Assembly: GCA_002825515.1 (NCBI GenBank)
Contig: PJET01000042.1
Location: 1 to 22,107, forward strand
Length of the DNA stretch: 22,107 nt
Reading direction: 5' to 3'
Source: Candidatus Thorarchaeota archaeon MP11T_1
Lineage (GTDB): Archaea > Asgardarchaeota > Thorarchaeia > Thorarchaeales > Thorarchaeaceae
Shown here: positions 6,335-22,107 of the stretch, piece after piece
Layout: every line of letters begins with the position of its first letter
Numbering within the stretch: the first letter of the stretch is position 1
Translations under genes and position numbers: made by a program
Notes under the pieces: generated by a model
Database searches by the model: none
The model's input: only the letters and a program-made list of their open reading frames with translations
Told to the model about the DNA's origin: nothing

Positions 6335-6360
6335 CCAAGTCCGTCTGTCATCTAATTTTT
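6315..6360 (+). terminator. Hairpin and T-run terminator of the GTPase gene
   Basis: GACTTGGC (6315-6322) pairs perfectly with GCCAAGTC (6334-6341) around an 11-base loop, spanning the TAG stop. It is followed by a TCTAATTTTT tract ending at 6360, next to the nuoN stop codon. The stem is symmetric, and on the minus strand it is followed by a pyrimidine-rich CTTCTTTTC, so it may also serve the end of the nuo operon. Confidence 0.55.
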
Positions 6361-7907
6361 CAGGGCAGTAATGGCACTGCTGCAAATGCATAGTCTAGAA
6401 TGATGTATGGGAAGATAAAGAGCGCAATTACTGCAACAACACAAATCACAACAGCTGCGTAGGGTATAGGCGGCAAGTTGATCTTTGAGTCGTCTGGAGC
6501 CTCCATCATGTATGAATACCTCAAAACTCGCAGGTAGTAACCAAGTGAGAAAACCGAGTTCAACAATCCAATGAGTGCCAGCCACCACATTCCTGCAACA
6601 ACAGCACTTTGGAAGAGAACTAGCTTGGACCAGAATCCAACTGTTAAGGGCATTCCAGCGAGCGAGAGCATAAGGATTGCCAACAGTCCTGCGGCTAGCG
6701 GCGCTCGTTTACTAAGTCCTGCGAGATCATCATATGTGATTCTCTTTGCTAACCTGATTGAGAGAGCCCATACTAGGATGAATGCAGAAGTCTTCATCAA
6801 TGCGTGAGTAAAAGCATGGAAAAGTGCAGCGCCAACTCCTAAATTGTACGCGACTGCGATTGTTGGATTCGCTGCAGCGACACCTATGAAGAGATAGCCC
6901 ATCATTGCAACACTACTATAAGCTAACATCCGCATTATGTCTCTCTGGGCGAGTGCCAACACGTTACCAATAACCATGGTTAGTATAGCAACCCCGACAA
7001 TAAGTAGTGTCCATTGGGTTTGTGCCGCTACGAAGCCAATAACGAGAATCCGCATTAATGCACCCACACCAGTCTTTTTGGATCCTCCTGCAAGATATGC
7101 CGTTACACTTCCATCTGCACTAGCATAGGCATCAGGTACCCATTGCCAGCCAGGAAAAACGCCTACCTTGAAACCAAAGGAAACAACGAACAAGACAACA
7201 GCTAGTACGATTGTGTATGCAGCATTGGGAGTTGTGGCGAACATATTCCAGATGCCATCAACTTCGGAAGCCACTTCAACAAGATTAGTAGTACCTGTAA
7301 CTCCATAGACAAGGGCAATTCCAAATAGCATCAACATAGTAGCAAGAAGGCCCATGACAAAATACTTGGTTGCACCATCAATCGCTTCTCTGGCTGGTCC
7401 TAAGGCAACAAGTATGTATGTTGGTGTTGACATCAGCTCCCACGCAAGAAATAGACCAACTAAGTCTGTGGCCATCACGACCCAGATCGCTCCAGCAAAC
7501 GACATTAACAACATGAAGTTGTATGGACCCTTATCACCACCATAGAGAGTGGATGACATAAGGACAAGAATAGCAACTATGAGAATAATGTAAATGAAGA
7601 AGTCAGCCATGGGGTCGCGAACAAACTGCCCAAATGATATTCCTCCGTCACCAATTAGAGCAGTAATCGCCGGATCATTTGGATCGAGAATCACCATCTG
7701 AATTCCAGCTAACAACACACCGACGAAACTTAGACCCAGAGGATTATACCGCATACCTACAACCAAAGCTATGATCGCGAAGAGAATCATAGTTAGAGCT
7801 GGCAAAGACATAATCCAACCTGGAGGTACAATAGAAAGCAGGAGGTTTCTAATAGGTAGAAGAATTCCACGAAGTGCATCTGCTATTTGGTCTAGTTGAA
7901 GTAACAT
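6360..7907 (-). CDS. nuoN: Complex I antiporter-like subunit NuoN
   Basis: A 515-residue polytopic membrane protein, last in the nuo operon. NuoN/antiporter features are a TM5 glutamate in FLAWELMSTPTYIL, a TM7 lysine in GFKVGVFPGWQWVPDAY, a TM8 lysine pair in GGSKKTGVGALMR, and AQRDIMRMLAYSSVAMMGY. The W-x-P-DAY sequence after the TM7 lysine is typical of NuoN rather than NuoL or NuoM. It would form one ion-translocating channel of the membrane arm, next to NuoK. The ATG at 7907 overlaps the upstream nuoM stop as TGATG, so I prefer it to the TTG one codon earlier. It converges with the GTPase gene. Confidence 0.93.
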   Translation of the reverse strand: MLLQLDQIADALRGILLPIRNLLLSIVPPGWIMSLPALTMILFAIIALVVGMRYNPLGLSFVGVLLAGIQMVILDPNDPAITALIGDGGISFGQFVRDPMADFFIYIILIVAILVLMSSTLYGGDKGPYNFMLLMSFAGAIWVVMATDLVGLFLAWELMSTPTYILVALGPAREAIDGATKYFVMGLLATMLMLFGIALVYGVTGTTNLVEVASEVDGIWNMFATTPNAAYTIVLAVVLFVVSFGFKVGVFPGWQWVPDAYASADGSVTAYLAGGSKKTGVGALMRILVIGFVAAQTQWTLLIVGVAILTMVIGNVLALAQRDIMRMLAYSSVAMMGYLFIGVAAANPTIAVAYNLGVGAALFHAFTHALMKTSAFILVWALSIRLAKRITYDDLAGLSKRAPLAAGLLAILMLSLAGMPLTVGFWSKLVLFQSAVVAGMWWLALIGLLNSVFSLGYYLRVLRYSYMMEAPDDSKINLPPIPYAAVVICVVAVIALFIFPYIILDYAFAAVPLLP

Positions 7908-9523
7908 CAAGGCACAACACCTCCAATGATGAAAGTGACAACAGACTGAGTGAAACTAAGAACAAGATCTGGCCATACACCAAGCAAAATCACTGGAATT
8001 AGCATCAAGATTGGAGCTATGAGATCACTCCATGGTGCTTCCGTGACTTCTTTTTCTGCATCAGGATCGCTGAAGACTATTCGGTTCAACATCCAGAGCA
8101 TGTAACCTACCGTTACGAAGATACCAAATGTGATGATAGCTGACCAGAGGTAGATAACAACGGAGCCAAAGATGACCAAGGCTTCAGCTATGAAACCACT
8201 GAATCCTGGAAGACCAAAGGCTGCAAATGACGCAAGAATCAGGATAGCGGAGAGTTTCGGAGCTTTGGTCATTAAGCCCTTAATATCAGGAAGCTCACGC
8301 GTTCCTGCGGAGTATTTGAGTTGTCCAGCCATGATAAACATGATGGAGATTATAGTCCCGTGACTGAACATCATGAATATTGAGCCTTGAAGTGCTAAGT
8401 TAGCAGCATTGATGTAGCCAACATTCTCTGCAACAAGTGGATCAAGACCAATTCCGAACGCAGCTACGGCAACACCAAGCAATACCCAGGACATGTGATT
8501 GATTGAGGTATACGCGACTAGACTCTTCAAGTCAGTTTGAGCCATTGCCGTGAATGCAGCATAGATACATGTGAAGATAGCTAATGCTGCGAAGGGGATA
8601 CTCAATCTAGCAAATGCACTGGGCACTAACCAAAGTCCAAGACGGATGAAAGTGTATCCACCCATCTTCAGCAAAATACCAGCGAGTATAACTGAACCCG
8701 GAGTTGGAGCTTTAACATGAGCCCATGGTAGCCAGTTATGTAGTGGCCAGACAGGTAATTTTACTCCTGCACCCATGAAAATAGCAAGTGCAAAACCAAT
8801 TTGAATCATCGGAGCTAGTGATGGCAATATGGTCCTGAGGCCTTCAGTTCCACCACTGATTTCAATTAGCGCAAATGTGTAGATGCCAGTTGCTTCACCA
8901 GCAAGCAGGTACATCATAAAGAAGGCGACAAGCATGACAGCTGAGCCAAGATGTGTATAGATGAAGAACTTCACAGCTGCATGTTCACATCCCTCTTCGC
9001 CCCAGCGTCCAATGATGAAGAACATTGGAATCAGAACCAATTCCCAGAATATGAAGAATCCAATCAAATCTAGTGACATGAAAACTCCCATCAATCCAGT
9101 CTGGAGCAGCAAGAAAAGGGAGTAGTAGAATCCTTCAGACTTGTGAATATGGTTCGAACTTATCGCTGCAATGAATACCACCAGATTGGACAATAGAATC
9201 ATAATAGCAGAGAGTCCATCAACTCCAATAATGAACTGGAAGATTGTATCTGTGGAGCCAATTGGGATTGTTCCCAATACAAAACTGTCAACGAACTGCA
9301 TTCCAGCATCTGTTGCAGTTGAAAGAATTTGATTCGTATCTACAGCAAGAACTAGAAGGAGTGATAATACAAGCTCAATGGTAGTGACTAGTAACGAAAT
9401 TGGACGAGCTCCTTTCCCTGCAAAGTATGCAACCAATGCAGCAACGAGTGGTAAAATGAGCATGAATGCTAATGGTCCTAGAGGTAGTGAGTTTAGGATG
9501 TTTAAAGCAAAGTCCAATTGCAT
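7907..9523 (-). CDS. nuoM2: Complex I antiporter-like subunit NuoM (second copy)
   Basis: A 538-residue membrane protein with the complete canonical NuoM set: TM5 Glu161 in FWELVLIPMFFI, TM7 Lys255 in GVKLPVWPLHNWLPWAHVKAPT, TM8 Lys286 in AGILLKMGGYTFIRL, and AMAQTDLKSLVAYTSINHMSW. The late acidic residue is in SGFIAEALV. This is the closer match to textbook NuoM of the two in this operon, and by order (L, M, N) it occupies the normal nuoM place. It should translocate an ion per turnover as part of the membrane arm. The ATG at 9523 follows the nuoL TAA by one base; a GGGAG near the end of nuoL can serve as ribosome binding site. Its stop overlaps the nuoN start. Confidence 0.95.
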   Translation of the reverse strand: MQLDFALNILNSLPLGPLAFMLILPLVAALVAYFAGKGARPISLLVTTIELVLSLLLVLAVDTNQILSTATDAGMQFVDSFVLGTIPIGSTDTIFQFIIGVDGLSAIMILLSNLVVFIAAISSNHIHKSEGFYYSLFLLLQTGLMGVFMSLDLIGFFIFWELVLIPMFFIIGRWGEEGCEHAAVKFFIYTHLGSAVMLVAFFMMYLLAGEATGIYTFALIEISGGTEGLRTILPSLAPMIQIGFALAIFMGAGVKLPVWPLHNWLPWAHVKAPTPGSVILAGILLKMGGYTFIRLGLWLVPSAFARLSIPFAALAIFTCIYAAFTAMAQTDLKSLVAYTSINHMSWVLLGVAVAAFGIGLDPLVAENVGYINAANLALQGSIFMMFSHGTIISIMFIMAGQLKYSAGTRELPDIKGLMTKAPKLSAILILASFAAFGLPGFSGFIAEALVIFGSVVIYLWSAIITFGIFVTVGYMLWMLNRIVFSDPDAEKEVTEAPWSDLIAPILMLIPVILLGVWPDLVLSFTQSVVTFIIGGVVP

Positions 9524-9524
9524 T

Positions 9525-11798
9525 TTATATCACTCCCAATGTAACTAATGCGAGAAGAATCAGTATTCCAATACCGAACATCACAACGCTAACATAGTCA
9601 TTAATACGTCCCGTCTGGGTCTCTGCTAGACCAACCTCAGACGCCCTAACACTTTCAGTTGAAATTCCCTCAGCCAATCCATCAACTACATTATCGTCAA
9701 ACCAGCGAACCTTTGTAGAAATCGAAATCGCTGCATCAGCAGATTTGAAGTCGATTCCATCAATTATCTTGTCATCCACTTGGACACGATACATTGCTGC
9801 AAAGTTGAGGAACTTCCTCAAGACCCAGTGGTATGCTTCATTGATGTACCATCTGTGTTTGAAAAGATTGTATATTCTTCGACGAAGTCCTGTTTCACCG
9901 ATAATGGTGTTAGGTGTATCAGCACCCCTGATATAGATGATATAACCAGGAATCCCACCTATGGCCAATGCACCCAATGTGATTGCGAATGGAACGATTC
10001 CTGGCATAGTGAGTTTGACTAGAATCATTTCGGTCATAATCTCACTCCAAGCATGAGCCTCATTGAGTACAATGTTCTGGATGAATGGAAACACAATGAA
10101 AGCTATTATTGTGAAACTAGCCAAGATATAGAGAGGGACCATCATAGCTGGACCCGGATCGTGTGGAGCTTCATGGTGGTCATCATGATGTTCTTCGACG
10201 TCATGCTCTGCTCCCTCTTCTTCATGAGCTTCATGAGTTTCGTGAGACTCGTAATGTGAAGGTCCATAGAATGTGATTCCCATTAATCGGAAGCTGTAGA
10301 AAATCGTGCAAGCTGCTGCCAAGATTGCAAAGAGGAATAGTATCCATCCTAATGGATTGGTCCAATGAGCAGCGAGCTCGTATGTATATTCTATAATGGA
10401 GTCCTTTGACCAGAATCCAGAGAAAGGCGGTATTCCAGCCAGCGCCAGAACACCAATCCACATAACAATGAAGGTCTTCCGCATATGTTTTCGGAGACCA
10501 CCCATCTTTGAAACATACTTCGTGTGGACTGCATGTATCACTCCACCTGAAGCCAAGAACAGAAGTGCTTTGAATGCGCCATGAGATACAACATGTAAAA
10601 CACTACTCAAATATGCGTAGTCATAATGTAGATGATTCACCTCAAGTAGACCACCAACACCCAAAGCCAACATCATGTATCCAAGCTGGGATAGCGTGGA
10701 GAAAGCAAGAATCTGTTTAAGCTCATTTGATGTCATTCCCATTGTGGCAGTTAGAAGTGCAGTGATGCCTCCGATGACTCCTACAATAATAAAGAATGTA
10801 AGAGCAGCTTCGAATCCGATTAATTGAGCTGCAGTGAAAGCATGCTCACCACCATTCTCAACACCAGCATTTGCAGCACTAACCATAGTGACTAGGAACC
10901 TTGCTGTAATGTATACTCCAGCTTTGACCATGGTGGCTGCATGGATCAGAGCTGAAACTGAAGTTGGACCTGCCATTGCTTCGGGCAACCATACTTGGAG
11001 GGGGGCTTGACCTGACTTGCCAATTGCTCCAGCAAATATCAAAATGAACACTGGAACCAAGAGACCAACTCCAGCAAGGGCGGTCCACCAGGTGTTATCC
11101 TGAGCCATTCCTGTAAGATTAGTAGCTCCAAGAGTTGTGTTCTCAAACATGAAGGTCCCTGTAAACATGAATAGAAGTAGAATACCACCTAGCATGAAGG
11201 CATCACCAATTCGAGTCACGATGAATGCCTTTGTTCCGCAGTAGGAGTTGTACTTACCCTCTGTCTCAAATTGAAGTAGTGGATTTGTCTGCTCATAACC
11301 AGTCGGGTCTTCTTCAGGTGGATTCCGCTTGTCATTCCAGAAACCGATGAGACCATAGGAACAGAAACCCATTATCTCCCATCCGATGAATCCAATCAAC
11401 AGGTTATTGCTCAGAACAAGTGTGAGCATACCACCACCAAATGCGAGCATCAGGAAGAAGAACCTGTCACGGTCCCCCTCATGAGCCATGTACTCAGTTG
11501 AGTACACGTAGATTAGGAAACATAGTGTGCTTGCTAAGACGCCCATGATGACAGATAGAGAATCAAGCAACATTCCAAAGGGTACTACTAGTACACCCGG
11601 AATGTTGATCCAGTGCCAAGTTGGATTAGGACTACCAATGTCTGGAAGCAGCGACCAACAGAGGATCATTGTGATACCCATGAAGATGGCAGGAGTCCAG
11701 TCTCTAAGTCTTTCATTGAATTTCCCAACAAGAGGAACAAGTAGTGAACCAGCTAATGGGAGCACGAGGATAATGTATTCTGGTAAACCAAACAGCAT
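9525..11798 (-). CDS. nuoL: Complex I antiporter-like subunit NuoL with His-rich insert
   Basis: A 757-residue protein, clearly longer than the roughly 610 residues of E. coli NuoL. Its motifs are TM5 Glu in GWEIMGFCSYGLIGFW, TM7 Lys in IGKSGQAPLQVWLPEAMAGPT, TM8 Lys in AATMVKAGVY, and SNELKQILAFSTLSQLGYM. It also has PPFSGFWSKD, and near the C-terminus the conserved ETQTGRINDY, which follows the lateral helix and precedes the last membrane helix. Residues about 515-546 form a loop with 10 His in 32 residues and many Glu/Asp. NuoL is the distal ion pump whose lateral helix runs along the membrane arm. The ATG at 11798 is chosen because GAGGTG (11810-11805) lies 6 bases upstream; the GTG at 11807 lies within that ribosome binding site. 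Confidence 0.95.
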   Translation of the reverse strand: MLFGLPEYIILVLPLAGSLLVPLVGKFNERLRDWTPAIFMGITMILCWSLLPDIGSPNPTWHWINIPGVLVVPFGMLLDSLSVIMGVLASTLCFLIYVYSTEYMAHEGDRDRFFFLMLAFGGGMLTLVLSNNLLIGFIGWEIMGFCSYGLIGFWNDKRNPPEEDPTGYEQTNPLLQFETEGKYNSYCGTKAFIVTRIGDAFMLGGILLLFMFTGTFMFENTTLGATNLTGMAQDNTWWTALAGVGLLVPVFILIFAGAIGKSGQAPLQVWLPEAMAGPTSVSALIHAATMVKAGVYITARFLVTMVSAANAGVENGGEHAFTAAQLIGFEAALTFFIIVGVIGGITALLTATMGMTSNELKQILAFSTLSQLGYMMLALGVGGLLEVNHLHYDYAYLSSVLHVVSHGAFKALLFLASGGVIHAVHTKYVSKMGGLRKHMRKTFIVMWIGVLALAGIPPFSGFWSKDSIIEYTYELAAHWTNPLGWILFLFAILAAACTIFYSFRLMGITFYGPSHYESHETHEAHEEEGAEHDVEEHHDDHHEAPHDPGPAMMVPLYILASFTIIAFIVFPFIQNIVLNEAHAWSEIMTEMILVKLTMPGIVPFAITLGALAIGGIPGYIIYIRGADTPNTIIGETGLRRRIYNLFKHRWYINEAYHWVLRKFLNFAAMYRVQVDDKIIDGIDFKSADAAISISTKVRWFDDNVVDGLAEGISTESVRASEVGLAETQTGRINDYVSVVMFGIGILILLALVTLGVI

Positions 11799-11808
11799 AT
11801 GACTCACC

Positions 11809-13344
11809 TCATGGGAATGGAATTAGGTCCGCAACCGCCGGGACAATGACATCCAGTGCCAGTCCTGGGAATATTCCAAAGAGCACAATGAGAATTCCAA
11901 GCATGACCATAGCACCCGTCATGGATTTGGAACACTCTTTCACATCTTCCAACTCATCAGGATGAGGTCCTAGGAAGACTTTCCAGAAGAAGCGCAACAT
12001 ATAGCCTGCACTTAGAATTGAACTTGATACTGCGAGAATCGTGAGGATTAGGAAAGGCATGCTAGCAACAGCTGCATGGTCTATTGCAGCTTCAAAACCT
12101 CCAAGAAACATCATCCACTCACTCGCAAAGCCTGAGAGCGGCGGACTTCCAGCAATGCTCATCATTCCAATAGCAGCAGCAAAGGCAGTGATCGGCATTT
12201 TGTTCGAGAGACCACCCATTTTTGTGATGTCACGTATCCCCGTCTGATGAATAACAGCGCCTGCGGTCATGAACAGAACTCCTTTTGAGAATGCGTGGTT
12301 GATTAGGTGGAAAAGACCTCCAGCCGCTCCAGTTGGCGTGTAGACTCCAAGAGCAAAGAGAACATAACCCATCTGAGAAACAGATGAGTAGGCTAGGAGC
12401 CGCTTGATGTCGATTTGAGCTAGAGCCATAAAGCCACCATAGAACATTGTTATTACACCTAGGGCAGCAATGGCGAATGCTAATTGATACGCAGCGGCCC
12501 AGAGTGTGATAGAGCCAAAGCGGACCAATGCATAGGCGCCTGTTTCAATCATTGCACCCGACAATAAAACAGAGATTGGAGTGGGAGCCTCAGCGTGAAC
12601 AGGTGGGAGCCACCAGTGGATGGGAAACACTGCCATTTTGACGAGAAATCCTGCAGCGAGTAGGATGAAGACAATTTTCAATATTGTTCCAATTGTAATT
12701 CCAAGGCCGGGTAGTGATTCTAACAGATTCAACGCAGTAATCGCAGATTGAAGTTGACTTAACTCGAAAGAACCAGTGAGTGAATAGAGGATACCAAACC
12801 CTACAAGAATACACACCGCACCTGATTGAGTGTACAACCAGAACTTCATTGCGGTACGTTTACGGGTTTCAGGCAACCCCCAGAATAGAATCAGGAAGTA
12901 GCTTGGTACTAGCATAAGTTCCCATGCGATAAAGAATTCGATCAAATTCGTTGCTAATGTCACCCACTGCATACCCATCAAGAAGAAGAGTTGGTTAGCA
13001 AAGAAGGTGGCTTTATTCTCACTGTGTTCTGTATACCCAACAGCATAGACCACTGAAAGGAATCCAAGAACTACAACTGCAAATGTAATAGGAAAGGCAA
13101 TCCCATCAAGCTTGAGCCCAAACTGTTCGAGTAGTACCGACCAAGTTGCATATTCTTCATAGGTAATCCCGCTAAGTACCTGATAGAAGGGATAAATCAT
13201 CAAAAGTGATGCAACTGCTGAGAATCCAACAGCAACTCTTCCAGCTGTTTTCTCCAGACTACCCTTGAAGACATAGATAAGAAGTCCTCCGAAGAAGAGC
13301 ACTGCTAAAGAGAGGGCTGCAAAGGGAAGGTCTGTGAGTTGCAT
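11809..13344 (-). CDS. nuoM1: Additional complex I antiporter-like subunit, NuoM type (first copy)
   Basis: A 511-residue polytopic protein with NuoM-family features: TM5 Glu142 in AWELMLVPSYFLI, TM7 Lys236 in LVKMAVFPIHWWLPPVHAEAPTP, ALAQIDIKRLLAYSSVSQMGY with Lys314, and Glu409 in SGFASEW. At the TM8 position where E. coli NuoM has Lys265 the segment reads SGAMIETGAYALVRF, so the lysine is replaced by Glu267. It lies between nuoI and nuoL, a place where ordinary operons carry no such gene. It is therefore an extra, fourth antiporter-like subunit alongside L, M2 and N. Its ATG directly follows the nuoI TAA (TAAATG), with a GGAGG-type site inside the end of nuoI. It could be nearer to the MrpD/hydrogenase-type pumps; only a phylogeny would tell. 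Confidence 0.9.
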   Translation of the reverse strand: MQLTDLPFAALSLAVLFFGGLLIYVFKGSLEKTAGRVAVGFSAVASLLMIYPFYQVLSGITYEEYATWSVLLEQFGLKLDGIAFPITFAVVVLGFLSVVYAVGYTEHSENKATFFANQLFFLMGMQWVTLATNLIEFFIAWELMLVPSYFLILFWGLPETRKRTAMKFWLYTQSGAVCILVGFGILYSLTGSFELSQLQSAITALNLLESLPGLGITIGTILKIVFILLAAGFLVKMAVFPIHWWLPPVHAEAPTPISVLLSGAMIETGAYALVRFGSITLWAAAYQLAFAIAALGVITMFYGGFMALAQIDIKRLLAYSSVSQMGYVLFALGVYTPTGAAGGLFHLINHAFSKGVLFMTAGAVIHQTGIRDITKMGGLSNKMPITAFAAAIGMMSIAGSPPLSGFASEWMMFLGGFEAAIDHAAVASMPFLILTILAVSSSILSAGYMLRFFWKVFLGPHPDELEDVKECSKSMTGAMVMLGILIVLFGIFPGLALDVIVPAVADLIPFP

Positions 13345-13776
13345 TTAGCGGAACCTCCTCCCACGCCACTCTAGCGGGTCTCTGTCAAGTGTTTCAATCT
13401 TGTCAGGCCCGTATATGAGGTCCTCACGGTCCCCTTCACTCAAATCAACAACGGGAGTATGGAATAGTGCATCGAATCTACATGCCTGTGTGCAGAGACC
13501 ACAGAATATGCATCGAGTATAATCAAAGTACAATGCGCAGTCCTTTTCGTACATCTTGTCTTCCTTATCCATTCTAATAGCAACAACAGGGCATGCACGA
13601 ACACATTGAGCACATGCTGTGCAGGTTTCGCGAATGTGGATGTGCCTGCCTCGAGTTCTCTCAGGATAGATTCTATCTTCAAATGGGAAGAAGTACGTGA
13701 AAGGTCTCTTGAAGACTTGTCTAAATGTATGTTTGAGAATCTGGAAACAGTCGCCTAGTACACTGAAGAATCCCAT
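13345..13776 (-). CDS. nuoI: Complex I iron-sulfur subunit NuoI
   Basis: A 143-residue ferredoxin-like subunit with two complete [4Fe-4S] motifs: CTACAQCVRACP (Cys 52, 55, 58, 62) and CIFCGLCTQACR (Cys 89, 92, 95, 99). These bind clusters N6a and N6b, which pass electrons to the N2 cluster in NuoB. The N-terminal FKRPFTYFFPFEDRIYPERTRGRHI segment before the clusters matches NuoI, including the R-G-R-H strand. It lies between nuoH and nuoM1 with spacings of 3 and 0 bases, as in standard operons on the H side. Because nuoE, F and G are missing, its upstream electron donor is unclear: ferredoxin, the GlcF-like protein, or the flavin domain fused to NuoB are possible. Confidence 0.96.
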   Translation of the reverse strand: MGFFSVLGDCFQILKHTFRQVFKRPFTYFFPFEDRIYPERTRGRHIHIRETCTACAQCVRACPVVAIRMDKEDKMYEKDCALYFDYTRCIFCGLCTQACRFDALFHTPVVDLSEGDREDLIYGPDKIETLDRDPLEWRGRRFR

Positions 13777-13779
13777 AGT

Positions 13780-14919
13780 CTAACCGCCTCCTAAAGGTAG
13801 CAATGCAGCTAGTCCAGGTAGATAGACTATCGCAAGCATTGCGATTACGACATTCAATAGCGCAAGTGGTAACAAATACTTCCAACAATAATGGACAATC
13901 TGGTCTTGTCTTAGTCGTTGGAAGGATGAACTAACCAGAACGAAGAAGAAGAACGTGATAATGAATTTGATAATGAAGTTGACAGCACCTGGTAGGAAAG
14001 GAAGACCTATTGGTCCACCTAAGAACAATGCTACAATCAGTGCTGAATACAGCATTTGCTCTGCGAATTCAGCAAAATAGGTGAGTGTAAAGTAGATACC
14101 AGTGAACTCCGTTCTCCAACCAAAGATAATCTCTGAGTCAGCTACGGGAGCATCGAATGGGAAGATACCTACTGATGCAATTGCAGCCACCAAGAATGTT
14201 GCGAGGTTGATTGGGAGCAGTGCTGCAAACCAAATTGACTCCTGAGCTTGCGCAATCCCCATCAGACTAAGAGAACCTGCAAGTATCGCTGGACCGATTG
14301 TTGAGATGATCATTGGAATTTCAGCGGCAAACTGATTGTTGGCAGCTCTAAATCCACCTATGAGTGAATACTTCGATCCACTGACCCAACCAGCAAGGAG
14401 TGCAATGACTGGCACTGCAGTGAGGAACGCAAAGACTAACACAAGACTCACTGAAAGATCAGCAATGTACCAATAATCAAAATCCCAGGGAATAAAGCAG
14501 AAAGGCAAGAGGACAATAACGAGAAGAAGTCCAGGGAGAAACCTGAACATCCAGCGCTTTGCATTATCTGGGATGATGCTCTCCTTAGCAATCAGTTTGA
14601 TAGCATCTGCAAATAATTGGAGACCTCCGTACTTACCCATATGAACAGGACCTCGTCGGTCTTGGATACGGCCCCAAAGTTTGCGCGTGAACCAGACAGC
14701 CCAAATGAGAGCCATTACGACGAAAATAAGGCCTGGAAATAGTACCGCTCGGAAGAGGAACATGAAATTGGCTGGGTTGAATACGGTTGCCCAAACATGC
14801 ACGATGAGCTCCCAAATCCAGAGAAGGATGCCTTTGACTATACCCCAAATCCAGAAGAGCACATCTTCAAGCCATTGTGGAATTCCAGCAAGCCAAGCAA
14901 AGAAATCGAATTGCAACAT
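13780..14919 (-). CDS. nuoH: Complex I membrane subunit NuoH
   Basis: A protein of about 379 residues with eight or more membrane segments. NuoH signatures are clear: RIQDRRGPVHMGKYGGLQLFADAIKL, GWVSGSKYSLIGGFRAANNQ followed by AAEIPM, and PFDAPVADSEIIFGWRTEF. The subunit forms the membrane floor of the quinone site and links it to the ion pumps. In the last motif the usual P-E-A-E reads P-V-A-D, losing one glutamate, while the following Ser-Glu remains. The frame is open further upstream into nuoD. I take the ATG at 14919 because GGGAGG precedes it and residues before it do not look like NuoH; the ATG at 14931, overlapping the nuoD stop as TGATG, is the alternative. Confidence 0.94.
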   Translation of the reverse strand: MLQFDFFAWLAGIPQWLEDVLFWIWGIVKGILLWIWELIVHVWATVFNPANFMFLFRAVLFPGLIFVVMALIWAVWFTRKLWGRIQDRRGPVHMGKYGGLQLFADAIKLIAKESIIPDNAKRWMFRFLPGLLLVIVLLPFCFIPWDFDYWYIADLSVSLVLVFAFLTAVPVIALLAGWVSGSKYSLIGGFRAANNQFAAEIPMIISTIGPAILAGSLSLMGIAQAQESIWFAALLPINLATFLVAAIASVGIFPFDAPVADSEIIFGWRTEFTGIYFTLTYFAEFAEQMLYSALIVALFLGGPIGLPFLPGAVNFIIKFIITFFFFVLVSSSFQRLRQDQIVHYCWKYLLPLALLNVVIAMLAIVYLPGLAALLPLGGG

Positions 14920-14930
14920 GACACCTCCCA

Positions 14931-16067
14931 TCAGCGATCCCACCACCCTGGATAAGGATCCAAACTTCCAAATATCACGATGAAGTCCGCAAACTTCGAA
15001 CCAGGCACCAAGTCCTTCAACGCATAGTATGAGGCGATACATGGACCTCGAATCTTTGCTCGGTACGCTGTCTGTGCTTTGTCTTGTGTCTTAAGCCACA
15101 GTGATGTGATACCTCGTGTCCCTTCTACTCGACCATATGCTTCTCCTTCAGGGAGTCTGTTAGCTTTTGCCCGAGCCTTAGGATCTATAATCTCACCCTC
15201 GGGTATCTGAGGAATCAACTGCTTAATGATCTCAACAGCGACCTCGGCTTCTTTGAATCGTTGTTCCATACGATCGAGCGCATCACTCTGGCCTGGATGA
15301 TCAGGATTCTCTGTTATAGGTACCTCCCAGTCAACCATGTCATAGGCTAGATTTGGATCTGGGTCGTCCTTTCGCAGGTCCATAGGAACACCACAAGCTT
15401 TGATCGGCGGACCACTCAAGCCCCATTTGAGGCCCTGTTTTACATCATAGATACCTATGTTTTCAGTCCTCGCTCGAAAGGTTGGACTTCCCATTTGCAT
15501 ATCTCTGAATTTGGGCAACCTATCCTCAAAACGCTCTACTGCACGATTTAGCTGCTTCATGAACTTCTCAGTGAAATCATACTTCACACCACCAGGCGTG
15601 GAGTATGACACTGTATGTCGAGAGCCAGTCAATTCTTCAAAAGCATCAAGTGTATATTCTCGGTCAACCCATGGCCATAGAGCCATTGTGAAGAAACCAA
15701 GCTCAGCATTGAATTGGCCCCACCAAAATTGGATGCTATGAAGCCGTGAAAGCTCCATCATGATGGTTCTCATCACTTTTGCACGCTCTGGTACTTCCAT
15801 CTCAGAGATTTTCTCAACTGCGGCAATATACGGATATTCAGCCAAAAACGCCTCAAGCATACACATTCGTTCTAACACTAGTGAGCCTTGCCTGAAGTTC
15901 TTGAACTCAAGGACCTTCTCAGCAGAGCGATGGAAGTAACCAGCGTTGGGGTCACACTCTACCACATAGTCACCTACGAGTGTTAATTTGGTAGCCCATC
16001 CGTGTGCGGATACGTGTTGTGGACCAAACCAGATTTCCATTGCTTCCTCAAGAATGTCAGGACTCAC
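14931..16067 (-). CDS. nuoD: Complex I 49-kDa-type subunit NuoD
   Basis: A 378-residue subunit that with NuoB and NuoH forms the quinone pocket. It opens with FGPQHVSAHGWA, keeping the quinone-binding His (His22, equal to His38 of Thermus Nqo4). It continues with GYFHRSAEK, AVEKI, MELSRLHS and the ending FGSLDPYPGWWDR. There are no paired CxxC motifs at the N- or C-terminal ends, so it is not a hydrogenase large subunit. The quinone-site tyrosine (Thermus Tyr87, in RMDY) is replaced: this protein reads RMCM, with Met70 at the Tyr position and Cys69 before it. The coupling Asp139 of Thermus appears as Glu122. The GTG start overlaps the nuoC stop as GTGA and has AGGTGA six bases upstream. Confidence 0.95.
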   Translation of the reverse strand: MSPDILEEAMEIWFGPQHVSAHGWATKLTLVGDYVVECDPNAGYFHRSAEKVLEFKNFRQGSLVLERMCMLEAFLAEYPYIAAVEKISEMEVPERAKVMRTIMMELSRLHSIQFWWGQFNAELGFFTMALWPWVDREYTLDAFEELTGSRHTVSYSTPGGVKYDFTEKFMKQLNRAVERFEDRLPKFRDMQMGSPTFRARTENIGIYDVKQGLKWGLSGPPIKACGVPMDLRKDDPDPNLAYDMVDWEVPITENPDHPGQSDALDRMEQRFKEAEVAVEIIKQLIPQIPEGEIIDPKARAKANRLPEGEAYGRVEGTRGITSLWLKTQDKAQTAYRAKIRGPCIASYYALKDLVPGSKFADFIVIFGSLDPYPGWWDR

Positions 16068-16591
16068 TTGTCTTCACCTCCCGATGCAGGTCTTGGTTTC
16101 GGAGTCGATATTCCTGTTTCTTCAAGTCTGCTCTGATCTGTCTGGAATCTTTTTCGAAGCGGATACGCTCCTTCCAGCTCATCAGGCAGCAAAAGGAGTC
16201 GTGGGTCAGGATGATTTTTGACACTCACGCCAAACATCTCTCTTACTTCTCTTTCATGCCATTCAAGACCAGGAAAGATGTCACACGTGCTTTCAATCTC
16301 TGGATTCTCACCTTCCAAAGATACTCGTAGTTGAATTAACAAACGATTGGTATGAGACCAGAAGATGTAGATTAGCTCGTAATTGTCATTCTCAAGATCA
16401 ACGCCAAAAACAGACTCAGGCATGGCATCATTGATTTCCTCATCTATTATCGTGATCACGTCACGGATTTTACTCGCAGGCACAACAAGCTCTATCTTAT
16501 TACCATCAAGAGGTTTCGATGATACCTCGGGAATCTTATTGATGACGAGTCTTCCAAAGGTTGCAGCATTCAGTGTAGTCGAGTCTGACAT
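16064..16591 (-). CDS. nuoC: Complex I 30-kDa-type subunit NuoC
   Basis: A 175-residue peripheral-arm subunit. The family signature lies near the C-terminus: FPGLEWHEREVREMFGV, then NHPDPRLLLLPDELEGAYPLRK. NuoC is a structural partner of NuoD and carries no cofactor. It is a separate gene, not fused to nuoD as in E. coli. The ATG at 16591 is preferred to an in-frame ATG at 16639, which lies inside nuoK: GGAGG nine bases before 16591 and the typical short N-terminus support it. The stop overlaps the nuoD start by four bases. A short Pro/Lys-rich tail (STPKPRPASGGEDK) follows the conserved region. Confidence 0.94.
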   Translation of the reverse strand: MSDSTTLNAATFGRLVINKIPEVSSKPLDGNKIELVVPASKIRDVITIIDEEINDAMPESVFGVDLENDNYELIYIFWSHTNRLLIQLRVSLEGENPEIESTCDIFPGLEWHEREVREMFGVSVKNHPDPRLLLLPDELEGAYPLRKRFQTDQSRLEETGISTPKPRPASGGEDK

Positions 16592-16592
16592 C

Positions 16593-16904
16593 TTATGGTT
16601 CCTCCAATTCGATTGGTTTTCCAAGGTCAACAGTGTCATACCGTCGATTGTACATCAACATCAAAACCAAAGCCAATGCTGTGTGCGCAGCCGCAACAGA
16701 GATAATCAGAATAATCAGCCCCTGACCTGTGAACGTGAAGACAGGACTATAGAGCGACATAGCTACAAGCGCTATGTTAACGCCATTGCCCATGATCTCA
16801 GCTCCAATCAGAATCCTAATGAGATTCCTCTTGACCATCATTCCATAGCCGCCTAATCCAATCAGCATGAATGAGAGAATTAGATACCATGAGAGAGGAA
16901 CCAT
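16593..16904 (-). CDS. nuoK: Complex I membrane subunit NuoK
   Basis: A 103-residue, three-helix subunit (MrpC-like). The first conserved glutamate is in place, Glu36 in LIGAEIMGNGVN. The second, Glu72 in E. coli within AAAEAS, is replaced: this protein reads SVAAAHTALAL, with His74. Both glutamates normally form part of the proton path between the quinone cavity and NuoN. The start overlaps the nuoJ stop as TGATG. The order J-K is kept from ordinary operons, but the pair has moved up to follow nuoA. Confidence 0.94.
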   Translation of the reverse strand: MVPLSWYLILSFMLIGLGGYGMMVKRNLIRILIGAEIMGNGVNIALVAMSLYSPVFTFTGQGLIILIISVAAAHTALALVLMLMYNRRYDTVDLGKPIELEEP

Positions 16905-17554
16905 CAGTCATCAACCTCCTCTGATTCCTCAGCTAGGTGGTCCTCATTCTCAATTACCTCAGGCTCTTGGAGTTCAGGTTCAGCCTCAATGCCAAACTCA
17001 CCTTTAATAGAAACGAGTTGCTCCGCCTTGTCCATCTTCAGTAATGCAATAGCGCCTACGAGCGAGGTGATCATAATCAGAGCAATAATCTGAACGTAGA
17101 TACCATTGTATGACCATAACCACAATGCTAGTTCATTGAGATCATTTGAGATAGCAATGAAAGTATCATCAAAGGACTCGGCCCATGGAAAGATAAAAGC
17201 AAGAACACCAGAGAGTATTATGACCAAGGTAGCCATAAAGAGCCCAATCTGGCGCTTTCGTGGTGATGAGAATTCTTCTAGAGATGAATCTTGAGCTCTT
17301 GGTAGTAATAGGACTGCAAAGATAATTAGTGCACTAATCCCTCCGGTATACACCGCAATCTGCATACCAGCAATAAATGGTGCCTCAAGCAGAAGGAAAA
17401 TCCCTGCGACAAATGATGCCATGAATCCAAAGAAGAACGCAGCATAAACAATCTCTTTGTGCTCGAGTGCGAGATATGCAAGAATCAATATAATGCCTGC
17501 AATCAAGAGGAATTCTCCAGGTTCTAGTAGATCTAATGCATTGACTTCTTGCAT
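16904..17554 (-). CDS. nuoJ: Complex I membrane subunit NuoJ
   Basis: A 216-residue protein with five predicted membrane helices. The TM3 segment GMQIAVYTGGISALIIFAVLL carries Tyr69 at the place of the conserved tyrosine (Tyr59 in E. coli) beside the pi-bulge that moves during turnover. After the last helix comes an acidic tail of about 35 residues (EFGIEAEPELQEPEVIE and on), longer than usual and similar in composition to the tail of the 18758-19309 membrane protein. The ATG lies two bases after the nuoA stop, with GGAGGT in the end of nuoA as ribosome binding site. The stop overlaps the nuoK start. Confidence 0.93.
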   Translation of the reverse strand: MQEVNALDLLEPGEFLLIAGIILILAYLALEHKEIVYAAFFFGFMASFVAGIFLLLEAPFIAGMQIAVYTGGISALIIFAVLLLPRAQDSSLEEFSSPRKRQIGLFMATLVIILSGVLAFIFPWAESFDDTFIAISNDLNELALWLWSYNGIYVQIIALIMITSLVGAIALLKMDKAEQLVSIKGEFGIEAEPELQEPEVIENEDHLAEESEEVDD

Positions 17555-17556
17555 AA

Positions 17557-18024
17557 TTAGTGACCTCCTGCAACGTGCTGTTCTTGTTCTCGCTGCGCCT
17601 TTGCTTTGCGATATACCTCAAGTGTTTCTTTCCCGTCCAAGGCTGCCTGTGGAAGCATTTTCATGACAAAGGCAATTCCGCCAATGATTATTAGGATAAA
17701 TATCGCCACCTGCCAAACTACTGTATACTTGGTGGCATCAACCCATAGTATGTTGGAAGATGAAAGAAGCCACAGGAATGCGCCCATAACGTCTACCACA
17801 ACAAAAAGGACTGTATAGATGAAGTAGTTGTATGGATATGAGATTCTTGCAGGACCAATTGGCTCTTCACCACATTCGTAGGTTGAAGTCTTCTCAGAGT
17901 TTTGTAGCACATGAGGACGCAATACCCATGATGCTAGGAGCATCACAACAACAAGAACAATGGCTAGTATTGCCCATATCAAAACTGGTATGAATTGCGC
18001 AAACAATCTTTCACTCTGCATCAT
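17557..18024 (-). CDS. nuoA: Complex I membrane subunit NuoA
   Basis: A 155-residue, three-helix subunit, first gene of the 11-gene operon. It has the family's YECGEEPIGPAR loop after TM1 and a TM2 that reads LFVVVDVMGAFLWLL. In most NuoA proteins this reads FDVE; here Asp78 is kept but the glutamate (Glu81 in E. coli) is replaced by Met80. The C-terminal tail is Gln/Glu/Lys-rich and ends in HVAGGH. The start is ATG at 18024 or the next codon at 18021. In ordinary operons nuoB follows directly; here nuoJ follows instead, and nuoB sits in the fusion gene upstream at 19309-21273. Confidence 0.93.
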   Translation of the reverse strand: MMQSERLFAQFIPVLIWAILAIVLVVVMLLASWVLRPHVLQNSEKTSTYECGEEPIGPARISYPYNYFIYTVLFVVVDVMGAFLWLLSSSNILWVDATKYTVVWQVAIFILIIIGGIAFVMKMLPQAALDGKETLEVYRKAKAQREQEQHVAGGH

Positions 18025-18382: not shown

Positions 18383-18748
18383 GTGATTCATTTGGTTCGT
18401 GGCGAAGAAGGCACATTCTTCTATTATCTTGCATTGTTGATTGGTATGGCTATCTTGGGAGTCTATTTCTGGGCTCTTATGACTTCAACAGTTATTGTAG
18501 TGAATTTGGTCTTCTATTGGGTCCTCGTATTAGGAGGAATGCTTTTCGTAATATCAGCATTCGGATTCGCCTCGGCCAAGACACGCTCAAGTAGAGTTGG
18601 TCTTACTATGATTACAGGAATCCTCGGAGGTATTCATGCGTATCTCATTTTTACAACATATGATCTTATCACTGGAATCATCCTGTTTGCATTGATGGCA
18701 TTAGGACTTCTAATTGCATTTGCTGCGTTCAATTGGCTCAGCGAGTAA
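18383..18748 (+). CDS. Small four-helix membrane protein of unknown function
   Basis: A 121-residue protein made almost entirely of four hydrophobic segments, at about residues 13-34, 37-63, 71-90 and 93-118, with a short Arg/Lys-containing connector (SAKTRSSR) in the middle. I do not recognise the family, and there are no cofactor motifs. The start is ambiguous: GTG at 18383, or TTG at 18392 with AGGTGA (18381-18386) five bases upstream, which is the better-spaced ribosome binding site. An out-of-frame ATG at 18373 opens a shorter frame that I regard as spurious. It is transcribed from its own TATA element, divergent from nuoA and convergent with the 18758-19309 gene, with only 9 bases between the stops. 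Its place between two complex I units makes an accessory role possible but unproven. Confidence 0.7.
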   Translation: MIHLVRGEEGTFFYYLALLIGMAILGVYFWALMTSTVIVVNLVFYWVLVLGGMLFVISAFGFASAKTRSSRVGLTMITGILGGIHAYLIFTTYDLITGIILFALMALGLLIAFAAFNWLSE

Positions 18749-18757
18749 AAGACACTC

Positions 18758-19309
18758 CTACTCGTTTTCAGCATCTGATGCTGGCTCAGTGGTATCTTGA
18801 ATATCCTCAGTTGCTGCCGGTTCAACTTCTGGTTCAGCCACAACTTCTTCTTCAGGCTCTGGTTCAGGTTCAGGCTCAGGACCATAATGCAAAGCACGGG
18901 TATCCAAGATGCCCGGAGAATAACTCTCTTCTTGGTTGTGCATCATTGCGAAACCAGCCGCAGTGAGAATTGATCCACCCAAACCCCAAAACGATAGATA
19001 CAGAGTACCTCCAGCTGCCGGTACAGCAAGGGCAAACTGATCAACAAATATGACGTAGAAGAAACCGACAGTGATGGAGAGTGCCATCATCAAGTTTTTG
19101 CCTTTTCCTTTCTCAGGTCTGAAATACCCGATCAAAAAGAAGACTAAGAGTATGGACATGCCACCAATGAGTGTGAAAGACCCTGCAATCAACAAGGATG
19201 CAGCAGGTATCATAAACCCAAGATATACAAAGTTAAAGATGAAAGCTGTGAGTATGATTATGCCAAGAAAGAGCATGCAGTATGGGTCACTATCTTGTCG
19301 AATGTACAC
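18758..19309 (-). CDS. Unknown five-helix membrane protein with acidic Pro/Glu tail, coupled to the GlcD-NuoB fusion
   Basis: A 183-residue protein. Residues 10-123 contain about five hydrophobic segments (near 11-30, 33-50, 50-63, 74-94 and 97-123). Residues 144-183 are a low-complexity tail with alternating Pro-Glu (PEPEPEPEPEEE) and more Glu, Asp and Thr. I do not recognise it as a known complex I subunit. The GTG start at 19309 shares one base with the TAG of the fusion gene (TAGTG), so the two are almost certainly co-transcribed and translationally coupled. Coupling to a NuoB-containing protein suggests it anchors or adapts the flavin-NuoB module at the membrane. The tail's composition resembles the acidic tail of NuoJ. 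Confidence 0.8.
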   Translation of the reverse strand: MYIRQDSDPYCMLFLGIIILTAFIFNFVYLGFMIPAASLLIAGSFTLIGGMSILLVFFLIGYFRPEKGKGKNLMMALSITVGFFYVIFVDQFALAVPAAGGTLYLSFWGLGGSILTAAGFAMMHNQEESYSPGILDTRALHYGPEPEPEPEPEEEVVAEPEVEPAATEDIQDTTEPASDAENE

Positions 19310-21273
19310 TATTGCATCATCCCCATCGCGTCTTGGTTTTCGTATTTTCGCTGCCAGTTAGTTGTACCGGCGCGTATCTTGTTTTGTAGAATGATATGTG
19401 CCCGGATGAAGTCTGCTGGTTTAGGTGGACAACCTGGAAGATATACATCCACAGGTACTACCTTGTCAGGTGGTGTGGCAAGGCTGTATCCTTCCCAAAA
19501 CAGCCCTCCAGAAGCAACACACTGACCAAACGCAATGACGTACTTTGGTTCAGGCATTTGTTCGTAAATACGTCTGAGTCGTGGAGCCATCTTCTTCGTT
19601 AGCGAACCTGAAATCCACAGAACATCAGTTTGTCTTGGACCGAAAAGCGGGAGCATTCCAAACCGTTCAAAGTCCCAACGAGGAGCAATTCCTGCAGCAC
19701 CATCAACCATGCAACATCCAATACCATACTGCATTGGCCAGGGACTGTGTGCTCTACCCCATCTGAGAACCCATTTCAATGGTGGAACATTCTGCAACCA
19801 CTTCAAGAGAATTGGTGCTATCCGACCAAATCCATTTCTGAATAAGTCATAGAATATCCATAGGAAGTACTTTCCTATTTTGAGAATGAATGGTAACCAA
19901 TAGGCGAACACCTTTCCAGGGTTAGAGATCTCCTTCTTGTCCCATTGAAGTTTGGCTGCTCTTATTCGGGCGAGTCTTTCTCTTCCGAAGTATTGTGAGG
20001 CATAATTAGCAAACCAAATACCAGTTGAGTGCACATGGCCTCCATGTCTTTGAGCTATCTTGAATATAACAAAGCTCTGAGCCCAAGAGAACATATAGAA
20101 CATCCGTCGCTCATCTTCGAGGAAGTATCCCATCATTGTGACTGCAGATTTTGAATTCACATATCCGTCAATGCCTGCTTTTGCAGATGCTTGCTCGAAC
20201 TGAAAGTCATCAAGGATGGCAGCAAGATTCTCTAATGGAGCAAATGCCTGACCAACAACGAGTGTTGGCCCCTTCTTCTTAATCTTCATAGGATAGTAAC
20301 GGTCGTGCCACTCGTGTTCAGCAACATCATCACCATAGACGACGCCTCTGTACATCTCAGTAACTTCCTCAACGACACTTATACCCTCCTCTATCTCCGC
20401 TTCATCGCCCTCATAGACTACCATTAGGGATCCGTGATGAGCAGGAATGGGGAATGGTTTGTCTCCCTCCCAGATTGCTTTCTTTAGATCAGTATATTTT
20501 GACTCTTCAAACTTGATGGTAAACGGAAGAGGTCCGTCTTCAAGAATCTTCTCAATTGCTAGAACCATCTGATAGTTTTCTTCAAAACTAGAAACTATCA
20601 CTTTCATTGGAGTTAGTGGTTTAATCTTCAGAGTGACTTTAGTTATGATTCCCAGAATTCCTTCTGTATCGCAGAATAGGTCAATGTCTTTTGTTTTGAC
20701 AAGTTTACCATTTGGCAGGACAACTTCAAGTTTGACTACATTCTTGTTGATATTGCCATACTTTAAAGATCCTATTCCATCGCCACCTTGAGCCACCCAG
20801 CCTCCGACAGTAGCAGACAGTCCTGACGAGGGGTAGCATCTTGTGTCCAAACCTTGTCTGTTGAGTTCAAACTGGAGATTTGCCCAAGATATTCCAGGCT
20901 CAACTGTAACAGTTAGATTATCACTATCAACCTCGAGGACCTTATCCATGCGGCGCATATCAACAATGATTCCGCCCTTTCTTGGTATTGCACCTCCATA
21001 GCCTGAAGTGCCTGCAGCACGGGGAACCAAAGGCACTTTGTATTTTAGTGCAACTTCATATAACGCTTGAATGTCTTCTGGGGTTTGAGGTTGTACAATA
21101 GCATCAGGCTTTGTATTCATGAGCCATCCAACTTGCTTTGGAAGAGAACCTACATCCTGTCCAAACAAAATCAGTTCGTGCTTCTCTGTAATTAGTCGGT
21201 CTCCAAAAATCTCCTCAAGTTTTTCTTTGGGCTTTGGTTTCAGGACCATGAGTCCACTCTCCAGCTCATGCAC
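19309..21273 (-). CDS. Fusion of a GlcD-type FAD oxidoreductase with complex I subunit NuoB
   Basis: One uninterrupted 654-residue frame with two recognisable proteins. Residues about 50-220 are a type-4 FAD-binding domain: VPRAAGTSGYGGA (84-95), then GGIIVDMRRM, PSSGLSATVGGWVAQGGDG, and TEGILGIITKVTLKI. Residues about 220-455 are the FAD-oxidase C-terminal cap, ending in the family's SNPGKVF. Residues 456-500 are a hydrophobic/basic linker. Residues about 500-636 are NuoB: GIGCCMVD (Cys520, 521), FGQCVASGG (Cys584) and YLPGCPPKP (Cys615), all four ligands of cluster N2. The usual GEHGIG of the cap reads STGIW, so the substrate is uncertain. NuoB normally receives electrons from NuoI and passes them to quinone; here flavin is tethered to it. 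The start is GTG at 21273 or ATG at 21249. No nuoB exists elsewhere in the window. Confidence 0.95.
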   Translation of the reverse strand: MHELESGLMVLKPKPKEKLEEIFGDRLITEKHELILFGQDVGSLPKQVGWLMNTKPDAIVQPQTPEDIQALYEVALKYKVPLVPRAAGTSGYGGAIPRKGGIIVDMRRMDKVLEVDSDNLTVTVEPGISWANLQFELNRQGLDTRCYPSSGLSATVGGWVAQGGDGIGSLKYGNINKNVVKLEVVLPNGKLVKTKDIDLFCDTEGILGIITKVTLKIKPLTPMKVIVSSFEENYQMVLAIEKILEDGPLPFTIKFEESKYTDLKKAIWEGDKPFPIPAHHGSLMVVYEGDEAEIEEGISVVEEVTEMYRGVVYGDDVAEHEWHDRYYPMKIKKKGPTLVVGQAFAPLENLAAILDDFQFEQASAKAGIDGYVNSKSAVTMMGYFLEDERRMFYMFSWAQSFVIFKIAQRHGGHVHSTGIWFANYASQYFGRERLARIRAAKLQWDKKEISNPGKVFAYWLPFILKIGKYFLWIFYDLFRNGFGRIAPILLKWLQNVPPLKWVLRWGRAHSPWPMQYGIGCCMVDGAAGIAPRWDFERFGMLPLFGPRQTDVLWISGSLTKKMAPRLRRIYEQMPEPKYVIAFGQCVASGGLFWEGYSLATPPDKVVPVDVYLPGCPPKPADFIRAHIILQNKIRAGTTNWQRKYENQDAMGMMQ

Positions 21274-21462: not shown

Positions 21463-22107
21463 ATGGAATTTCCAGCACTCAATGATTACGACCTCCAGAA
21501 TTATGCTTTCACTTGCGCTCAATGCAGTTTTTGTCAAGTTGGACATGGTGCTTGTCCTACATACAAAGTCAAACGTCGAGATAGCTATTCCGGAAAAGGC
21601 AAGATGCTATTGACACGATCTTTGATGCAAGGTAGAATCAGACCTTCAGAGGGTCTTGAAGGTCTTAGAGATGCCATTTTTGGTTGTACTCTTTGTGGTG
21701 GCTGCGAAGAGATTTGTCAAGTTGATATTCCTTTTGTGAAAATCTATCAAGTTATGCGAAATGAATTTCTAAAACGAGGGATGTGGCCTGAACAGCTTAA
21801 TATGGCAAAAGAAACGCTTCTAAAGAGCTTCAACATCCAGGGACAAGCTCAGATGGATCGTATCGAAGGATGGTCCTACTGGACTCCAAATGAAGATGAA
21901 CTTCTTGACAAACAAGGAACACCGGCAAAGAATGCCTTCTTCTTTGGTTGCGCCTCATCTTTCCGAGGTGTTTCAATTCAAGCAACAATTGCAACAACTC
22001 TTATTCTGGACAAAATAGGAGAAACTTATACAGTACTTGGTGAAGAGGAGTATTGTTGCGGCGCTCCGCTCATCATGACAGGCGATTTTGAGGGTGCAAG
22101 GGCTCTA
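21463..22107 (+). CDS. GlcF/HdrD-like iron-sulfur protein, 3'-truncated
   Basis: The frame from ATG 21463 stays open to the window's edge (215 codons visible). Two [4Fe-4S] motifs come first: CAQCSFCQVGHGACP (about residues 18-32) and CTLCGGCEEICQ (about 78-89). A CCG-type domain begins at FFFGCASSFRG and reaches EEYCCGAPLIMTGD just before the edge. This arrangement is that of glycolate oxidase subunit GlcF, lactate-utilisation proteins and heterodisulfide reductase HdrD, which carry electrons between a flavoprotein dehydrogenase and another carrier. It lies head-to-head with the GlcD-NuoB fusion, the natural GlcD partner, so the two probably form one dehydrogenase. Which CCG subfamily it belongs to cannot be told until the second half is seen. 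Start choice rests on GGAG at 21449-21452. Confidence 0.9.
   Translation, partial: MEFPALNDYDLQNYAFTCAQCSFCQVGHGACPTYKVKRRDSYSGKGKMLLTRSLMQGRIRPSEGLEGLRDAIFGCTLCGGCEEICQVDIPFVKIYQVMRNEFLKRGMWPEQLNMAKETLLKSFNIQGQAQMDRIEGWSYWTPNEDELLDKQGTPAKNAFFFGCASSFRGVSIQATIATTLILDKIGETYTVLGEEEYCCGAPLIMTGDFEGARAL

Follow-up and report, generated by a model that had tools for sequence, protein, structure and literature searches.

A GlcD-type flavoprotein fused to complex I subunit NuoB in Thorarchaeota: a likely flavin side-arm to or from a disulfide-handling partner

Results

Thorarchaeota are archaeal relatives of the ancestors of complex cells. The stretch of DNA analysed here (the window: 22,107 nucleotides, positions 1 to 22,107 of contig PJET01000042.1 of Candidatus Thorarchaeota archaeon MP11T_1) carries a complex I operon whose first gene, on the minus strand at 19309-21273, encodes a GlcD-like flavin adenine dinucleotide (FAD) protein fused in frame to the subunit NuoB. 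The gene is a single open frame of 654 amino acids when read from a GTG codon; since most homologues have 646 residues, translation probably begins at the ATG of residue 9 (nucleotide 21249), which gives that same length. A GlcD/LDHD-type FAD part (residues ~10-460) leads through a helical linker into a complete NuoB. Pfam places FAD_binding_4 at residues 56-194 (E 3.7e-40), FAD-oxidase_C at 224-455 (E 1.7e-8) and Oxidored_q6 at 532-625 (E 5.6e-23), and two NuoB subfamily models of NCBIfam exceed their cut-off on the C-terminal part. Family search and alignment assign the NuoB half to 19309-19779 (minus strand) and locate the cysteines of iron-sulfur cluster N2, an adjacent Cys-Cys pair plus two more, at residues 520, 521, 585 and 615; all 47 sequences compared (the window fusion and 46 fused protein clusters) have these four cysteines. 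These data bear out a preliminary description of the DNA, in which one frame was said to hold a complete GlcD-type FAD domain and a complete NuoB, with the flavin on the same chain as N2; its list of N2 cysteines was right for three residues and off by one for the fourth, given as 584 and really 585.

The linker (residues ~460-502; 19768-19896, minus strand) is predicted to form helices at 459-480, 482-494 and 497-509, which are moderately hydrophobic. The junction lies near residue 499, where an unfused homologue from genome G217 stops and NuoB similarity begins: the G217 protein ends ...FPPLKWIRNDM, and the fusion at the same place reads ...VPPLKWVLRWGRAHSPWP. A single-chain structure model of the fusion reached a predicted template modelling (pTM) score of 0.75; the Foldseek and VIA-align match lists are dominated by the FAD half and barely probe the NuoB half of the model. 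LctD, from the Ldh-EtfAB complex, is one of the closest solved relatives.

When proteins of fusion-like length were searched, with residues 470-654 alone counting for the score, 93 were retrieved. FAD and NuoB domains occur together in 46 clusters (P0001-P0046), P0048 is a partial copy, and the remaining 46 have NuoB in another setting and never with this FAD domain; the search works by five-residue words, and remote fusions may escape it. A one-genome-per-species scan found 22 fusion loci at 75-95% identity, labelled in their records as Thorarchaeota (19), Lokiarchaeota (2) and 'archaeon' (1). The fusion is full or nearly full in 31 of the 227 genomes of the phylum of CP070761 (L018/G001), a single-contig Thorarchaeota chromosome of 3.16 Mb; one further genome, G200, has only a piece of it at a contig end. 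The preliminary description had named a stop or frameshift at the junction as the sign of a false fusion, and the sequences of all 46 fused clusters continue across it. One in-frame stop appears within the matched stretch in two of the 30 located fusion rows (G202 and G193); the open reading frames (ORFs) of the corresponding records (L005 and L012) are intact, with 646 amino acids. The named fusion records are metagenome assemblies, but an assembly or annotation artefact has a negligible chance of explaining 46 clusters from several databases with the same architecture and near-constant length, and 22 separate records of which one is a single-contig chromosome. The fusion is real and no accident of assembly.

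In the operon the normal position of nuoB is empty, as first described, and no standalone nuoB occurs elsewhere in it. That the fusion is the only NuoB also stands for the single-contig chromosome CP070761, where it is the only complex I NuoB found: PF01058 gave three matches, the fusion and two proteins recognised by eye as small subunits of soluble hydrogenases (one with HdrA/MvhD-like genes alongside), and the NuoB model TIGR01957 gave one, the fusion. Neither model reveals a hidden second true NuoB in that chromosome. A further NuoB-like frame, standalone and 163-204 amino acids long, is present in at least nine other fusion genomes. The operon context of these frames was examined in five genomes (G182, G184, G194, G206 and G203), where we assign them to group 4 [NiFe]-hydrogenase operons because the large subunit beside each carries RICGIC and DPC(F/Y)SC; four more are in G186, G188, G195 and G207. 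Frames of ~670 amino acids in the NuoB family were considered as further flavin fusions; the three examined turned out to be NuoI-NuoB-NuoD triple fusions in other genomes of the phylum (L065:5268-7274, L066:5610-7625 and L070:960-2960); the NuoD motifs of the first look like those of the Pyrococcus sulfane reductase MBS.

The FAD_binding_4 and FAD-oxidase_C fold of the GlcD/LDHD dehydrogenases is present in the fusion; of the motifs of metal-dependent hydroxyacid dehydrogenases, its FAD domain has neither the GD(G/N)xxH type nor EHG. The metal and substrate ligands of LDHD, to judge from the accessible text of its description, are His, His, Glu and His (PMC10589216). Pattern search and alignment found the motifs absent from 21 of 22 compared relatives too, the closest unfused ones included; the exception, L086 ORF 3, has EHGIG and, by eye, GDNHLH. 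In lacking the metal and substrate motifs the fusion differs from the GlcD/LDHD/LctD dehydrogenases, and we reject a hydroxyacid dehydrogenase function.

Upstream of the fusion, on the plus strand, lies an HdrD-like iron-sulfur/CCG protein (21463-22107, cut by the window end), recognised by family search and by comparison of the 22 loci. An HdrD-like gene occupies this upstream, opposite-strand position in 20 of the 22; the other two, L003 and L013, have only 2.6 and 1.2 kb of upstream sequence. In 15 of the 20 the gap to the fusion is below 0.4 kb. Full-length HdrD orthologues carry cysteine sets for two [4Fe-4S] clusters and two complete CCG sets: 13 cysteine columns are kept in 18 of 18 rows, five in 17 of 17 readable rows and one more in 16 of 17 (one gene fills two of the 18 rows, and truncated copies are excluded).

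NuoD (14931-16067, minus strand) departs from that of quinone-reducing enzymes. The quinone head-group ligands are His38 and Tyr87 of Nqo4, according to the parts consulted of two accounts (PMC9120487, PMC7684303). The equivalent histidine is kept and methionine stands at the tyrosine position in 22 of 22 Thorarchaeota NuoD rows, from which four of the 22 loci without a NuoD of at least 340 amino acids are excluded. Among the best 120 of 238 homologues, the 61 Thor-type clusters have Met (57) or Leu (2) or are gapped (2) at this position, the five next relatives (46-48% identity) have Met (4) or Leu (1), and the other 54 have Tyr (52) or Trp (2). The replacement of the tyrosine by Met or Leu argues that this is not a standard quinone-reducing complex I. 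As to the [NiFe] ligands, the first L1 cysteine is kept and the second L1 and both C-terminal L2 cysteines are absent in 22 of 22 rows, leaving one of the four cysteines of a group 4 [NiFe]-hydrogenase large subunit. The best Protein Data Bank match of the window NuoD is 6u8y_L, presumably from MBS, with 200 bits against 176 for Nqo4. The first [NiFe] cysteine, equivalent to C85 of MbsL, is reminiscent of a state between sulfane reductase and complex I. Elsewhere, His and Tyr are both missing from the NuoDs of G176 and G178 and both present in those of G044, G047 and G052. An HdrD-like gene precedes nuoA by ~5 kb in G176; G178 has a GlcD-HdrD pair, on a different contig from that NuoD. Given these NuoDs and gene positions, a link between tyrosine loss and GlcD/HdrD is suggested at most.

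On the minus strand the fusion is followed by a conserved 183-amino-acid membrane protein of no Pfam family (18758-19309), whose start overlaps the end of the fusion by one base, and then by NuoA (17557-18024), NuoJ (16904-17554), NuoK (16593-16904), NuoC (Complex1_30kDa; 16064-16639), NuoD, NuoH (NADHdh; 13780-15042), NuoI (13345-13776), an extra antiporter-like subunit (Proton_antipo_M; 11809-13344), NuoL (9525-11807), NuoM (7907-9523) and NuoN (6360-7910). NuoC, NuoH and the antiporter-like subunit were identified by family search, and NuoA, J, K, L, M and N by eye from order and sequence. The two [4Fe-4S] motifs of NuoI are both intact in 13 of 13 rows (the window and 12 loci). No nuoE, nuoF or nuoG was seen in the operon of the window; the NuoF family occurs in six of 35 genomes searched, and none of its genes shares a contig with the fusion or the G217 FAD gene. 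A conserved 121-amino-acid membrane protein of no Pfam family is encoded on the plus strand at 18383-18748. The extra antiporter-like subunit, the fourth of the operon, is also present in 14 of 22 loci, and the remaining eight end before its position; it recalls the four-pump complexes mentioned in PMC9040806. NuoL has 760 amino acids and includes a His/Glu/Asp-rich stretch, HYESHETHEAHEEEGAEHDVEEHHDDHHEAPHD. Adjoining nuoN is a gene (5774-6334, plus strand) that we take, from its P-loop motif, to encode a Rab/Arf-like small GTPase.

The gene for the unfused FAD protein of G217 (498 amino acids, 56% identity) comes immediately behind those for an HdrD orthologue (67%) and a MenA-like protein; P0095 is a second unfused relative. 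In a 44-row tree the 11 fused FAD domains form one clade (98/99), to which the split FADs P0094 (G217) and P0095 are sister (100/99). In a 32-row tree the fused NuoBs fall in the complex I part, apart from group 4, and are joined by the standalone NuoB of G002 (100/99), a placement that carries a long-branch warning. A single fusion event would be the simplest reading. The NuoD of G002, sought to order tyrosine loss relative to fusion, was represented only by a 29% match on another contig. The same FAD subfamily is fused to HdrD in P0100 and G007; P0101 (868 amino acids) joins a GlcD of the subfamily to the membrane subunit NrfD, the second case of a membrane module acquiring this flavin domain. 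In G178 and G179, relatives of the subfamily, then HdrD, occur ~2 kb after nuoLMN-like genes. The subfamily recurs as a building block. Several GlcD and HdrD paralogues are clustered near the fusion in L058 (with a phytoene-desaturase-like gene), L071 and L072, and some of the GlcD paralogues near the fusion, adjoining HdrD genes, carry C-terminal membrane helices.

Discussion

The fused FAD domain likely gives the Thorarchaeota complex I a direct flavin side-arm to or from a disulfide-handling partner. The absence of NuoEFG from the operon, the intact NuoI and the missing dehydrogenase motifs favor ferredoxin as donor and the FAD domain as a relay between N2 and HdrD; the two [4Fe-4S] motifs of NuoI make ferredoxin entry possible. 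We thus favor a ferredoxin-type complex I whose N2 cluster would exchange electrons with HdrD through FAD, most likely outward to a disulfide, and put its probability at roughly 0.4. In this scheme the FAD domain and the neighboring HdrD-like protein would form a flavin/iron-sulfur arm; electrons would pass from ferredoxin to NuoI (N6a, N6b), N2, FAD and HdrD, and the disulfide would be reduced at HdrD while the membrane arm pumps ions. We infer that the domain binds FAD, that HdrD docks and that the FAD-N2 distance is short enough for transfer, and likewise the outward direction, the identity of the disulfide, the donor and the pumping. The preliminary description had envisioned a complex fed by an organic substrate, and had overlooked both the conserved divergent HdrD-like gene at 21463 and the loss of the NuoD tyrosine. 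Its placement of the flavin on the N2 chain holds, and NuoEFG is missing from the operon; the organic substrate is not supported, given an FAD domain devoid of metal and substrate motifs and an HdrD-like gene as the conserved neighbor.

Several observations weigh against the scheme just outlined. It offers no evident way in which electron exit through FAD would be coupled to pumping. HdrD is divergent and outside the operon, and in five of the 20 loci it is 2-10 kb away. The second quinone ligand, His, persists in NuoD, as does the adjacent Cys-Cys of quinone enzymes in NuoB. The structure model is more certain in its FAD half than in its NuoB half. Genome G183 (locus L096) has a Thor-type NuoD (75%) and no fusion was found in it, which reflects either an assembly gap or a lineage exception. 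Finally, a lipid carrier may be the partner, because a MenA-like gene, often with polyprenyl synthase and geranylgeranyl reductase (GGR) genes, is found near the fusion: on the same contig, 1.5-19.5 kb away, in 18 of the 31 fusion genomes, and at 11 of 20 annotated loci, nine with polyprenyl synthase and eight with GGR beside it. Nine of the other fusion genomes have the MenA-like gene on another contig and four gave no match.

A bolder and more doubtful form of the ferredoxin-to-disulfide reading holds that this complex I abandoned quinone altogether. The complex would then be a ferredoxin:disulfide oxidoreductase that pumps ions, its electrons going from N2 through the NuoB-fused flavin to a CCG-type HdrD, and would prove physically, for the first time, that GlcD/HdrD forms part of an archaeal complex I. 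A simple "no quinone" view is weakened by the carrier genes nearby and by the similar parts list of the Methanomassiliicoccales, in which, according to the accessible part of the report, a headless Fpo and HdrD without HdrE accompany genes for polyprenyl synthase and a MenA-like enzyme that would serve a lipid carrier of undetermined nature (PMC4153887). The MenA, GGR and polyprenyl-synthase block leaves room for a possible quinone-linked version.

That version leads to the main rival, in which the arm works inward: HdrD, another donor or both would reduce FAD, and electrons would pass through N2 to a quinone-like carrier in the membrane. This is the direction first proposed, with a thiol or other donor in place of a hydroxyacid. 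We consider it less likely than outward flow. The carrier genes near the fusion speak for it, as do the retained histidine of NuoD, the complex I-like Cys-Cys of NuoB, the fusion of a same-subfamily GlcD to NrfD in P0101, and a haem lyase and cytochrome near the fusion of a close relative. It has to contend with the lost quinone tyrosine, an FAD domain lacking dehydrogenase motifs and the failure to recognise a menaquinone head-group enzyme. PF02621 has no match in 35 genomes, and MenB and MenD have none over cut-off in 22 genomes each (sub-threshold matches occur in 22 and eight of them), and we set the menaquinone pathway aside because its head-group families were not found over cut-off. Cut-offs alone decide little here, because the MenA-like gene is also below the cut-off of its search model: it was matched in 31 of 35 genomes searched, never above it, and the MenA-like protein of L002 does exceed the TIGR00751 menA cut-off (131 vs 102). 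A carrier with another head group than menaquinone is possible. The haem lyase of the close relative is of the CcmF/NrfE type and the cytochrome, a multihaem protein, has c552/c554 domains; their distances to the fusion are ~7 and 12 kb (L002:1173-3245 and L071:18108-19508), and they hint at a fuller respiratory chain.

An improbable alternative makes the flavin a bifurcating hub that links ferredoxin (via N2), HdrD and a lipid carrier, with one flow driving another. By gene architecture the FAD domain may sit between N2 and HdrD, and the presence of LctD among its closest solved relatives points the same way. To our knowledge, however, LctD itself is not the bifurcating flavin of its complex, and no EtfAB or HdrA was recognised among the neighboring ORFs that were identified, many others having stayed without identification. 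Less probable again is a structural or membrane-anchoring relic on an ordinary ferredoxin-driven complex I: the missing active-site motifs and the hydrophobicity of the linker helices would fit, but FAD_binding_4 is well preserved, many residues of the fusion are invariant across the 47 sequences and the HdrD neighbor is conserved.

Respiratory complex I shares with the Thorarchaeota complex the N2 cysteine set and an operon with NuoA-D and H-N, and differs from it in the NuoB-FAD fusion, the absence of NuoEFG, the loss of the NuoD tyrosine and the fourth antiporter-like subunit. We know of no flavin part of MBS. Like the Thorarchaeota NuoD, MBS lacks Tyr87 and keeps the first [NiFe] cysteine, but to judge from the part of its description at hand it also lacks His38 and the Cys-Cys N2 motif, both kept here (PMC7684303). 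NuoB is joined to another protein in archaeal NuoB-NuoC(-NuoD) fusions as well; there the partners are complex I subunits, whereas here the partner is a flavoprotein, and among archaeal fusions the accessible text of that survey lists NuoB-C and B-C-D, not FAD-NuoB (PMC11237513). The Fpo-like complex of Methanomassiliicoccales has similar parts, namely HdrD and a headless complex I together with a MenA-like prenyltransferase and polyprenyl synthase; GlcD is mentioned 0 times in the accessible part of that account and no such fusion is seen there (PMC4153887), whereas the Thorarchaeota have both.

The claim that no complex I of this architecture has been described holds up, inasmuch as a literature search, with most subscription papers and all supplements outside its scope, gave no report; databases already carry the protein under names such as 'NuoB'. 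The closest parallels are the "Fpo-associated HdrD/GlcD" and a ferredoxin:heterodisulfide oxidoreductase of Fpo and HdrD, predicted in Korarchaeia, Bathyarchaeia and Verstraetearchaeota/Methanomethylicia (PMC10667645, PMC8407382, PMC6783470, in their accessible parts). Both these predicted systems and the Thorarchaeota loci have a complex I apparently without NuoEFG/FpoF input and with HdrD and GlcD associated, and the Thorarchaeota loci contain a headless complex I, intact NuoI clusters, a linked HdrD with CCG sets, and GlcD. A complex I lineage that lost the quinone tyrosine, in relatives of eukaryotes, is besides a natural experiment on the coupling mechanism. In the available texts on headless archaeal complex I, both the exit of electrons and the docking of HdrD/GlcD have so far rested on gene content, whereas in Thorarchaeota GlcD is covalently attached to NuoB. 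As far as the literature found goes, this would be the first covalent evidence for GlcD/HdrD on complex I; kept across Thorarchaeota, the fusion would fix the docking point at NuoB/N2 and make the question testable with one protein.

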